This document shows positions 18,249 to 20,825 of a DNA stretch of 64,000 nucleotides, one piece after another. Where the stretch lies: assembly GCF_001905545.1 (NCBI RefSeq), contig NZ_LIPD01000008.1:1-64000 (forward strand), given 5' to 3'. Under the pieces are notes generated by a model. It worked only from the letters and a program-made list of their open reading frames with translations, ran no database searches and had not been told where the DNA came from. Position numbers and translations under genes: made by a program. Within the stretch, counting starts at the first letter, position 1; each line of letters starts with the position of its first letter. Source of the DNA: Streptomyces sp. CB02056 (GTDB lineage: Bacteria > Actinomycetota > Actinomycetes > Streptomycetales > Streptomycetaceae).

Positions 18249-18521
18249 TCAGACCGCGCTCTTCTTGAGCCGACGGCGCTCGCGCTCGGAGAGGCCGCCC
18301 CAGATGCCGAAACGCTCGTCATTGGCGAGGGCGTACTCCAGGCACTCGGAACGGACCTCGCAGGCGAGGCAGACCTTCTTGGCCTCGCGGGTCGAGCCGC
18401 CCTTCTCGGGGAAGAAGGACTCGGGGTCGGTCTGGGCGCACAACGCGCGCTCCTGCCAGCCGAGTTCCTCCTCGTCCTCCGCGATGCCGTCCCCGATCAA
18501 CAGCTCAAAGAGCTCGCTCAT
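18249..18521 (-). CDS. whiB: WhiB, iron-sulfur sporulation regulator
   Basis: Wbl-family transcription factor of 90 aa, nearly identical to Streptomyces WhiB as I know it. Four Fe-S cysteines are present (Cys28, Cys51, Cys54, Cys60), followed by the turn FGIWGGLSERERRRLKK. WhiB acts with WhiA as a co-activator/repressor that starts sporulation septation in aerial hyphae, binding next to sigma HrdB region 4. The start has a strong GAGGAGG site. The monocistronic layout with a long upstream region is typical. Divergent from the cysteine dioxygenase group. Confidence 0.97.
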   Translation of the reverse strand: MSELFELLIGDGIAEDEEELGWQERALCAQTDPESFFPEKGGSTREAKKVCLACEVRSECLEYALANDERFGIWGGLSERERRRLKKSAV

Positions 18522-18590
18522 GTGGCGCGCCTCCTCTGCCCCTACTTGGCGTCCCCGTGGTTGCCGTTGCCTCGTGCGGCTGACGACACG

Positions 18591-18626
18591 AGTGAAATTA
18601 CAGTTGCGTCACTCTGGCCCAGTCAA
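18591..18626 (-). promoter_or_regulatory. Predicted whiB promoter with overlapping BldD-like box
   Basis: On the minus strand TTGACT (18621-18626), an 18-nt spacer and TGTAAT (18597-18602) form a good sigma-HrdB-type promoter that would give a leader of about 70 nt. AGTGAAATTAC (18591-18601) overlaps the -10 and differs by one base from the BldD consensus AGTGAnnTCAC. BldD control of whiB is established in Streptomyces. Two GACAC motifs (18585-18589, 18697-18701) match the WhiA core. The remaining upstream DNA to about 18895 shows no gene. Confidence 0.55.
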
Positions 18627-18897
18627 GCCGAGCTCTGGTATTGGGGCTGGGATTCACTCCCTGGCACCAAGCCGTTACGAATAGTGTACATATCCGGACA
18701 CATCGGACCTTCCACCTCAAGGTCCTGAACGGTGCCGAACCATCCGCAACCATTCACCGGGTGACGCTCGGTCACCGTCACAGGCCGGTCATCGGCCTGC
18801 CTTCCCGGCGATCTTCCCATCGAAACATAGAGAGTGATGAATCACCCCATCAGGGAAAGATCCGGGCCTAACCCACTCGAATGCCGCATCCTTCGGT

Positions 18898-18927
18898 TTG
18901 ACACCGCCCCTGCGGATGCGGTGTCCT
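18898..18927 (+). promoter_or_regulatory. Predicted leaderless promoter for the Cys-rich leader ORF
   Basis: A consensus -35 TTGACA (18898-18903) is followed after 18 nt by TGTCCT (18922-18927), a weak -10. Initiation about 7 nt further on would fall at or beside the ATG at 18935. An 8-bp inverted repeat GACACCGC/GCGGTGTC (18900-18907, 18918-18925) lies inside the promoter and contains the GACAC core, so a regulator could bind here. Confidence 0.45.
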
Positions 18928-18934
18928 TGCTCCT

Positions 18935-19021
18935 ATGTCAGAGTTCGCCAGCCCCCGGAGCGGTTCCACGCTCCGCCGTGCCGTGAACTCTTGTTGTCGC
19001 CTCTGTTCCTGCTGTATCTAG
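18935..19021 (+). CDS. Cysteine-rich leader peptide (28 aa), putative cysteine-responsive uORF
   Basis: Short ORF running ATG to TAG and ending NSCCRLCSCCI. Five of eight consecutive residues (20-27) are Cys, and four of the five Cys codons are TGT, which is rare in this GC-rich DNA. No ribosome site precedes it, and the predicted transcription start coincides with the ATG, suggesting leaderless translation. The next gene, 123 nt downstream, is cysteine dioxygenase. Comparable poly-Cys leaderless uORFs are known upstream of cysteine/sulfur genes in mycobacteria, where ribosome stalling senses cysteine supply. The role here is inferred; no alternative function is apparent. Confidence 0.65.
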   Translation: MSEFASPRSGSTLRRAVNSCCRLCSCCI

Positions 19022-19144
19022 GCGCCCGCGTCCCACCGCGCGCCGCCCCCAGGAAGCACAGAGGCCGCCCGCGATTCCCGTCCCAGGACATCCCGGATCC
19101 GGCCGATCCCGACGAACCGGCCGACCCTTCCGAGGACGACTCCC

Positions 19145-19825
19145 GTGCGCATGATCCGCATCCGCAAGCGGAACCGCGACCGCAACAAGCTCTCCCGCCG
19201 TGGCCCCGCCACCGTCCGCACCGGCACCCCCGCCGACGCCCGGACCCGCCAGTGGGCCGACGGCCTCAGCGACGTCTCCATCGCCGGCGACCCGCTCGCC
19301 TTCCCGCACCTGGCTCGCACCGACCTGCCCGCCCACCCCACCACCGTCGCCGAGTACGCCCGGCTGGTGCGCGAGATCGCCGCCGACCGCTCCCGCTGGG
19401 AGCCGCTGGTCCGCTACGACGCGCTGACCCGCTGGTACGCCCGGCTGGAGACCGGCCCCGGCTACGAGGTCTGGCTGCTCAGCTGGCTGCCCGGGCAGTC
19501 CAGCGGCTTCCACGACCACGGCGAGTCCTCCGGCGTGATGAGCGTCGTCCGGGGCGAGCTGATCGAGCGCTCCCTCACCCTCCCCCAGCCCTCGGCCGGG
19601 GGCGACCCCAGCGGCGCGATCGCCCGCACCCTGCGGCCCGGCGGGCAGCGGGTGTTCTCCTCCGGCTACCTGCACGAGGTCGTCAACGGCGCGCTCGAAC
19701 CCGCCGTCTCCATCCACCTCTACGCCCCCGGCCTGACCGAGATGAACCAGTACGGCGCCACCGCCGTCCCCGAGCAGCACCAGGAGCAGCACACCGGGCG
19801 GCAGGCGCAGGCCGGGTCGCACTGA
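19145..19825 (+). CDS. Cysteine dioxygenase (type I, cupin)
   Basis: Mononuclear Fe(II) enzyme oxidising cysteine to cysteine sulfinate, 226 aa. The cupin motif GFHDHGESSGVM supplies His123 and His125; the third His is His177 (YLHEVVN). The arrangement matches bacterial CDO without the Cys-Tyr crosslink being certain. The basic N-terminus (MRMIRIRKRNRDRNK) is unusual and may be overcalled: GTG 19145 follows GAGGACG at a suitable distance, with ATG 19151 as alternative. The preceding 123 nt hold no gene but could fold as part of leader-peptide control. Confidence 0.9.
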   Translation: MRMIRIRKRNRDRNKLSRRGPATVRTGTPADARTRQWADGLSDVSIAGDPLAFPHLARTDLPAHPTTVAEYARLVREIAADRSRWEPLVRYDALTRWYARLETGPGYEVWLLSWLPGQSSGFHDHGESSGVMSVVRGELIERSLTLPQPSAGGDPSGAIARTLRPGGQRVFSSGYLHEVVNGALEPAVSIHLYAPGLTEMNQYGATAVPEQHQEQHTGRQAQAGSH

Positions 19826-19865
19826 TCACGGCTGACGGAAAGTCGGACCGTGGCAGGATGAACCC

Positions 19866-20825
19866 ATGCGCATCGTGGCACTGGCAGGCGGAATCGGCGG
19901 AGCGCGCTTCCTGCGCGGACTCCTCGCGGCGGTCGGACCGCAGGACGAGATCACCGTCATCGGCAACACCGGCGACGACATCCACCTCTACGGCCTCAAG
20001 GTCTGCCCCGACCTCGACACCGTGATGTACACCCTCGGCGGCGGCATCCACGAGGAACAGGGCTGGGGCCGGACCGACGAGACCTGGTCCATCAAGGCCG
20101 AGATGAAGGAGTACGGCGTCGGCCCCGAGTGGTTCGGGCTCGGCGACCGCGACTTCGCCACCCACCTCGTGCGCAGCCAGATGCTCACCGCCGGGTACAG
20201 CCTCAGCCAGGTCACCGAGGCGCTGTGCGTGCGCTGGAAGCCGGGCGTGCGGCTGCTGCCGATGAGCGACGACCGGGTCGAGACCCACGTGCGGATCACC
20301 GACGAGCAGGGCACCCGGGCGGTCCACTTCCAGGAGTACTGGGTCCGGCTGCACGCCGAGGTGGACGCCGAGGCGATCGTCCCGGTCGGCGCGGACACCG
20401 CCAAGCCCGCGCCCGGAGTGCTGGAGGCGATCGCCGAGGCGGACGTCATCCTCTTCCCGCCGTCCAACCCGGTGGTCTCGATCGGCACCATCCTCGCCGT
20501 CCCCGGCATCCGGGAGGCGGTCGCCGCCGCGCCCGCGCCGGTGGTCGGGCTCTCCCCGATCATCGGCGGGGCGCCGGTGCGCGGCATGGCCGACAAGGTG
20601 CTCGCCGCCGTCGGCGTCGAGGCCACGGCGGAGGCGGTCGCGCTCGACTACGGGCCGGCGCTCGTCGACGGATGGCTGGTGGACACCGTGGACGAGGCCT
20701 CGGTGGCCGCCGTCGAGGCCGCCGGGATCGCCTGCCGGGCCGTCCCGCTGCTGATGACCGACGTCGAGGCCACCGCCGAGATGGCGCGGGCGGCGCTCGC
20801 GCTGGCCGAGCAGGTGCGCAAGTGA
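19866..20825 (+). CDS. cofD: CofD/FbiA, (dehydro)phospholactate transferase of F420 biosynthesis
   Basis: Transfers a phospholactyl or phosphoenolpyruvyl unit from its GDP- or GTP-derived donor to the deazaflavin Fo, giving (dehydro)F420-0. It is 319 aa, family length. The N-terminal nucleotide site is [50 protein letters not shown] and [19 protein letters not shown] are family signatures. It overlaps cofE by 4 nt and lies 40 nt after cysteine dioxygenase, so all three may share a transcript. In actinobacteria the activated donor is usually the PEP-derived one. Confidence 0.96.

Follow-up and report, generated by a model that had tools for sequence, protein, structure and literature searches.

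A conserved cysteine-rich upstream ORF before a cysteine dioxygenase-type gene of Streptomycetaceae, a candidate ribosome-dependent attenuator

Cysteine leaders and the locus upstream of the dioxygenase gene

The polycysteine leaderless ORFs of mycobacteria lie upstream of sulfur or cysteine genes, are short, are placed for a leaderless start and carry their Cys codons near the stop codon, and it has been proposed that ribosome stalling within them blocks structures that hide the ribosome site of the next gene (Canestrari et al. 2020, Mol Microbiol; cited in PMC9094748 and PMC13236596). The candidate cys leaders of Mycobacterium, P. acnes and B. longum cbs, as described in the sections of PMC1262725 available to us, have runs of Cys near the stop and no obvious terminator, and leaderless leader peptides are listed for S. 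lividans (PMC8079986, Table 4). The shortness, the Cys codons near the stop, the lack of an obvious terminator and the position before a gene of cysteine metabolism are shared by, and a leaderless start and the consequence of stalling are likewise proposed for, an upstream ORF (uORF) that precedes a cysteine dioxygenase (CDO)-type gene in the window, the stretch of 64,000 nucleotides from Streptomyces sp. CB02056 (NZ_LIPD01000008.1, positions 1 to 64,000) analysed here. The locus is composed as follows:

18249-18521, minus strand: whiB, divergent neighbour and synteny marker (PF02467, E 2.9e-27)
18898-18903, plus strand: TTGACA, -35 element
18922-18927, plus strand: TGTCCT, -10 position
18935-19021, plus strand: Cys-rich leader uORF, 28 codons followed by TAG (19019-19021), sequence MSEFASPRSGSTLRRAVNSCCRLCSCCI
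18992-19015, plus strand: cluster of Cys codons, the proposed sensor (TGT TGT CGC CTC TGT TCC TGC TGT)
19145-19825, plus strand: cysteine dioxygenase-type gene with a GTG start (PF05995 CDO_I, E 4e-21)
19866-20825, plus strand: fbiA/cofD (TIGR01819, E 3.9e-123), after a gap of 40 nt behind CDO

An earlier note on this DNA had described a 28-codon ORF with five Cys in eight codons, four of them the rare TGT, ahead of a cysteine dioxygenase gene. Direct reading bears out the ORF and its five Cys (C20, C21, C24, C26 and C27; TGT four times and TGC once), the match to PF05995 confirms the identity of the next gene, and TGT is indeed rare: among 30 long high-GC3 ORFs of the window it encodes 7 of 98 Cys residues (7%). 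The ATG at 18935 lies 31 nt past TTGACA, and 123 nt separate the end of the uORF from the start of CDO. Only one ATG per strand of the window has TTGAC at -40 to -29 and opens an ORF of 12-50 codons, and of these two ORFs only the studied uORF has at least three Cys among its last 14 residues. When the same rule is applied to the fetched loci (2.0 Mb, both strands, redundant), 119 of 120 distinct peptides are CDO leaders. Judged by these sequence counts, a Cys-rich uORF before the CDO gene is not a matter of chance.

All 27 PDB sequences that match CDO at E 0.01 carry the name cysteine dioxygenase, and the record of the best solved match, 8qfl, names only cysteine dioxygenase. 8qfl may be an ergothioneine dioxygenase, for which a literature search yielded no confirmation. 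Strict active-site patterns gave HDHG in 68 and HDHT in one of the 69 Kitasatospora sequences; in 70 others these patterns, which are too strict to be informative, found no match. A Streptomyces-type genome (L281; CDO assigned by Pfam, whiB and fbiA by sequence likeness) shows the same gene order, whiB-leader-CDO-fbiA, and SCO3034 and whiB are mentioned together in the literature. From this association and this order, SCO3035 is probably the S. coelicolor orthologue of the studied gene. SCO3036 and SCO3037 are presumably the F420 genes. The suggestion of the earlier note that the F420 genes could be co-regulated is unsupported, since SCO3036 and SCO3037 are absent from the table of up-regulated genes that lists SCO3035 (PMC4991794, Table 1), which argues against co-regulation provided that these numbers are those of the F420 genes.

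Conservation of the leader and its promoter in Streptomycetaceae

A CDO protein is encoded in 70/70 genomes of the genus, which comprises Kitasatospora together with strains still labelled Streptomyces, assigned according to their named relatives. The Cys-rich uORF is present in all 69 Kitasatospora loci examined, 68 recognized by rule and one (L066) by eye; G048, where the CDO orthologue is only a piece, and L103, which is cut at a contig end, were excluded, and the repeat genomes L071-L073 and apparently repeat genomes L074-L102 were left out of the counts. In the rest of the family, 70 of 71 loci, the exception being L174, have a likewise placed Cys-rich ATG ORF; the rule asked for at least two Cys among the last 14 residues, all 70 in fact having at least three, and 21 of the 71 loci (L154-L174) may duplicate species among the other 50. 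Conservation of the Cys codons across Streptomycetaceae, which had been named as a sequence test of the idea, is therefore what these loci display. Across 200 genomes of the family, a CDO gene is found at E 1e-45 in 189, 64 of them Kitasatospora, upstream DNA being taken from the loci stated above. None of 28 CDO-homologue loci outside the family has a TTGAC-placed ATG uORF with at least three Cys before the CDO homologue.

The number of Cys among the last 14 residues is 3-7 over both sets and 3-6 in the 69 Kitasatospora leaders. The N-termini vary between genera and the Cys cluster is kept, as in a Streptomyces-type leader, MPATSAPLANPVRGFRSAVQARCCCSSC (L154), which has an N-terminus unlike that of Kitasatospora and retains the Cys end. 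TGT makes up 262 of 319 uORF Cys codons (82%) in Kitasatospora and 246 of 321 in other genera, and in 67/69 Kitasatospora leaders the Cys cluster opens with a TGT codon. The stop codon is TAG in 69/69 Kitasatospora uORFs and TGA in 64/70 of those from other genera. Kitasatospora uORFs have 27-33 codons, with the frame kept. Spacers between uORF and CDO differ greatly between genera, and in the 69 Kitasatospora loci they fall into phase 0, 1 and 2 in 18, 30 and 21 cases, respectively. In the window the uORF and CDO share a frame; since all three phases occur across the 69 loci, readthrough from the uORF into CDO was rejected as a general mechanism.

The placement of the ATG relative to the promoter is similarly constant, with TTGACA starting at -37 in 66 and at -36 in two of 68 Kitasatospora loci (L066 was left out of the promoter count). 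The -10 position follows T[CG]T[CG]CT, with T-13, T-11, C-9 and T-8 each present in 68/68 and A at -12 in 0/68 of these loci, unlike the TAnnnT reported as the -10 consensus of S. lividans (PMC8079986), and a sigma-70 scan of 18600-19900 found no promoter. The earlier proposal that the ATG falls where a TTGACA promoter would start transcription agrees with the fixed spacing and is qualified by the atypical -10 and the scan. A -10 position that lacks A at position 2 is perhaps that of an activator-dependent or otherwise unusual promoter. A pyrimidine-rich stretch with no Shine-Dalgarno sequence precedes the uORF ATG of the window. The motif of WhiA is GACAC, and binding of WhiA at the promoter was considered and dropped because many other genera carry TTGACAG.

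RNA pairing, the proposed switch and its competitors

Downstream of the ATG, pairing segments were delimited in the Kitasatospora leaders, with the following positions in the window:

18999-19011, plus strand: segment 1, within the Cys codons, pairing with segment 2 according to swap test and folds
19021-19044, plus strand: apical hairpin GGCGC..GCGCC, its first base being the stop-codon G
19050-19073, plus strand: segment 2, CAGGAAGCACAGAGGCCGCCCGCG, of which 19050-19065 pairs with segment 1 and 19063-19073 with segment 3
19092-19105, plus strand: segment 3, CCCGGATCCGGCCG, with segment 2 or segment 4 as alternative partners
19117-19136, plus strand: segment 4, containing the Shine-Dalgarno sequence GAGGA (19132-19136)

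Co-evolution was assessed by a swap test, in which segments are permuted between species with relatedness uncorrected and pairings from the same leaders serve as controls. For 1:2 (42 distinct pairs) the native value was -18.49 kcal/mol against -17.04 for permuted segments, and for 3:4 (65 pairs) it was -19.93 against -18.83 kcal/mol; in both cases 0/5000 permutations reached so low a value, while the two control pairings were null (1356/5000 and 2441/5000). An earlier test with other segment limits again gave 0/5000 for 1:2, and in that version a foreign segment pairs better than the native one in some single leaders, above all in L038. By the same test 2:3 shows no covariation, 4890/5000 permutations being as good or better (60 pairs). 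RNAalifold picks 2:3 together with the apical hairpin, with both-sided changes in 3/25 pairs; the 2:3 pairing is conserved, without covariation. Five consensus pairs of the apical hairpin are intact in 69/69 sequences. Two further pairs have changed on both sides, one in 4 and the other in 10 sequences, and one of these two is broken in 3. Since the apical stem begins at the G of TAG, it may account for the uniform use of TAG in Kitasatospora. The first two TGT codons of the window lie outside segment 1, and the 1:2 pairing therefore does not account for them. In the other genera the swap tests were null for the Cys codons (309/2000, 69 pairs) and for the Shine-Dalgarno sequence (1456/2000, 43 pairs), which confines the structural claim to Kitasatospora; beyond that genus the conservation shown is that of the uORF with its Cys cluster and of its distance from the promoter.

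The mean energies of 2:3 and 3:4 are nearly equal (-16.2 and -16.1). In a kinetic folding model of the 69 leaders, with segments located by pattern and transcripts ending before segment 4, the mean P(2:3) was 0.10 for RNA free of ribosomes. Placing a ribosome at the first Cys raised it to 0.43, or to 0.83 when the RNA upstream was also covered, and a ribosome placed at the stop gave 0.16-0.18. From the free to the stalled state P(2:3) rose by more than 0.2 in 66/69 leaders with upstream cover and in 38/69 without it. For the leader of the window itself P(2:3) was 0.19 when free, 0.99 when stalled and, at the stop, still 0.90-0.96, which means that for this leader the model cannot tell stalling from termination. 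Equilibrium folding at full length with ribosome footprints revealed no switch, the mean unpaired fraction of the Shine-Dalgarno sequence being 0.22-0.23 in every state, and was rejected as a test of polarity because the ribosome states do not differ. Nor is the Shine-Dalgarno pairing stronger than in shuffled sequences (0.588 versus 0.654; 5/69 leaders above 90% of their own shuffles), so that hiding of this site beyond what such a composition gives by chance was likewise rejected. Any switch would thus be kinetic, as in classical attenuators. No Rfam family matched 18500-19300 above its gathering score; a mir-24 match on the minus strand at 19000-19066, over the long leader hairpin, reached 25.8 of the required 50 bits and was set aside as coincidence.

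We propose that the leader is probably a ribosomal attenuator sensing Cys-tRNA, of the mycobacterial polycysteine kind, in which stalling corresponds to the ON state. The conserved uORF, the fixed distance from -35 to ATG, the TGT bias and the co-evolving 1:2 and 3:4 pairings support an attenuator, and the earlier idea of a leaderless-type Cys-codon leader acting on CDO gains support at the level of sequence, the Cys codons being conserved family-wide; the leaderless start, the stalling and the polarity are what we infer. Transcription would begin at or beside the uORF ATG, where a ribosome would start without a Shine-Dalgarno sequence. With ample Cys-tRNA the ribosome would clear the TGT-rich cluster and leave, segment 1 would pair with segment 2, and 3:4 could then form and cover the Shine-Dalgarno sequence of CDO (OFF). 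With scarce Cys-tRNA the ribosome would stall at C20/C21 and cover segment 1, so that segment 2 could pair with segment 3 ahead of the synthesis of segment 4, leaving the Shine-Dalgarno sequence open (ON). That P(2:3) is higher in the stalled state than at the stop favours this polarity. In S. coelicolor wild type treated with H2O2, SCO3035 is up 6.54-fold (PMC4991794, Table 1), together with SCO6094-6102, SCO4164-4165, SCO2910-2912 and metNIQ, a response which the authors ascribe to HbpS-SenS-SenR (PMC4991794). H2O2 treatment is not a direct test of cysteine limitation. Taken together, the kinetic model and the co-induction of SCO3035 with cysteine biosynthesis suggest that CDO would be induced by cysteine shortage.

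Induction of a cysteine-degrading enzyme at cysteine shortage makes no obvious sense and is the opposite of a simple catabolic need. The physiology of a catabolic gene would fit the same sensor with reverse polarity, in which CDO is on when translation of the uORF at ample cysteine keeps segment 1 covered, and off when ribosomes stall or load poorly; segment 1 does still lie under a ribosome that has reached the stop codon, and the window leader has its P(2:3) of 0.90-0.96 there. We consider this arrangement unlikely, given that over the 69 leaders the mean P(2:3) is 0.16-0.18 at the stop versus 0.43-0.83 at the first Cys and that mycobacterial polycysteine leaders are reportedly ON when stalled (Canestrari et al. 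2020). Moreover, SCO3035 rises with, not against, the cysteine biosynthesis genes (PMC4991794).

Two other explanations concern what the leader acts on. Cysteine could be read out through transcription or mRNA stability, by Rho or by decay while the spacer is untranslated, rather than through a Shine-Dalgarno hairpin, a route that would be compatible with stalling as the ON state. The change seen for SCO3035 is one of mRNA level (PMC4991794), Rho has been raised for the mycobacterial cys leaders (PMC1262725), and the great divergence of the spacers between genera, with no co-evolution of the Shine-Dalgarno pairing outside Kitasatospora, would agree with it. Within Kitasatospora, however, the 3:4 pairing that covers the Shine-Dalgarno sequence does co-evolve, and the plus strand at 18600-19900 contains no terminator-like site, so that a terminator hairpin with a U run of the classical trp type does not apply, though Rho could still act; on balance we find this route doubtful. 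It is highly improbable that the uORF product is a functional Cys-rich microprotein binding metal or responding to redox rather than a sensor in cis: the peptide is conserved inside Kitasatospora, but its N-termini are unlike between genera, the Cys number (3-7) and order vary, the Cys codons co-evolve at the RNA level with a segment outside the coding sequence, and a peptide function does not account for the TGT bias.

Related leaders and comparison with known systems

Poly-Cys leaders are found at further genes of the family. In ten genomes, searched for ATG ORFs with at least two Cys among the last 14 residues, leaders precede cysA-sseC in 10/10, metN in 9/10 and cysI in 2/10. The cysA-sseC leader type, MKRQADLTKRRAVDLCRVAAMLCR (L233-L242), lies about 1.0-1.2 kb before DUF1416 in 10/10 genomes, and the one cysA leader tested matches NF042933 with 48.5 bits (cut-off 45). 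The metN leaders (L270-L279), situated some 1 kb upstream of the NIL domain, mostly end in CMCRMCAF or CMCRRMCHC. At mec-cysO-cysM a leader is present in 0/10 genomes although the operon is co-induced in S. coelicolor, and the absence of a leader there was counted against the attenuator reading. The CDO paralogue in the genome of the window (L002, G000:C34) has a leader of NF042934 type, MDSGATLVCRLHVDLRRQASSICAC, 372 nt before the paralogue match; this leader and the cysI leader match NF042934 above the cut-off. SCO5772 was tried by neighbourhood as the counterpart of this paralogue, which could not be established. The one peptide among the 120 that is not a CDO leader, MQRRLLLVARRHVDLCRLASSVCRRGC, starts at about position 776 on the minus strand of locus L186 with TTGACA upstream, is divergent from a CDO homologue and matches NF042934. 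Two of the 28 loci outside the family (L185 and L195, from other actinobacterial families) have an NF042936/NF042934-like Cys leader below the cut-off. In L185 there is, in addition, a GTG ORF with the C-terminus HRCCCTAR, without TTGAC placement.

The leader of the window has no match above the curated cut-off to NF042933 (Ms5788A), NF042936 (Ms4527A) or NF042934 (putative leader peptide). Its peptide and five further variants of the CDO leader found no NCBIfam match at a limit of E 10, nor did two more variants at E 1, these negatives being limited by the HMMER filters, which drop most matches above about 0.1. The CDO leaders of Streptacidiphilus and some Kitasatospora (RLHGSLRRAASALC, RSRHxxLxRAASALC) do align with the core RxHVDLxRxSSxxC; this alignment hints that the CDO leaders may derive from the NF042934 core, with the Streptacidiphilus form as an intermediate.

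The novelty claimed earlier stands in part: searches of the openly accessible literature, outside which most subscription papers lie, brought up no account of a leader peptide in front of a cysteine dioxygenase gene, whereas poly-Cys leaders in Streptomycetaceae are not new as such, as the NCBIfam matches at cysA-sseC, cysI and the CDO paralogue indicate. As a tentative possibility, Streptomycetaceae may have a cysteine ribulon, in which ribosome stalling on Cys codons links genes that include a thiol dioxygenase, with the whiB-adjacent CDO as a cysteine-shortage gene. CDO might then, for example, oxidise another thiol to free sulfur rather than dispose of cysteine. An enzyme annotated as cysteine-destroying and apparently wired to cysteine shortage is a striking puzzle. 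Ribosome-directed cysteine sensing would extend across an antibiotic-producing family by way of a leader family missed by the NCBIfam models, and part of the peroxide response of S. coelicolor cysteine genes, ascribed to HbpS-SenS-SenR, would have an alternative or additional cause.

Compared with the described systems, the candidates in the sections of PMC1262725 available to us precede biosynthesis genes, include no Streptomyces cys case and have no defined competing structures. Among the S. lividans leaders considered from Table 4 of PMC8079986 none is assigned to cysteine and none stands before a CDO gene; the metL leader carries C-M-C-R-R-M-C and is described there by its methionines and threonines (PMC8079986). 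This leader, described as one for methionine, may sense cysteine. The leader studied here differs from the mycobacterial polycysteine ORFs in its Streptomycetaceae host, in its peptide family and in the CDO gene downstream, and also in that one side of a co-evolving pairing is made up of the Cys codons themselves.
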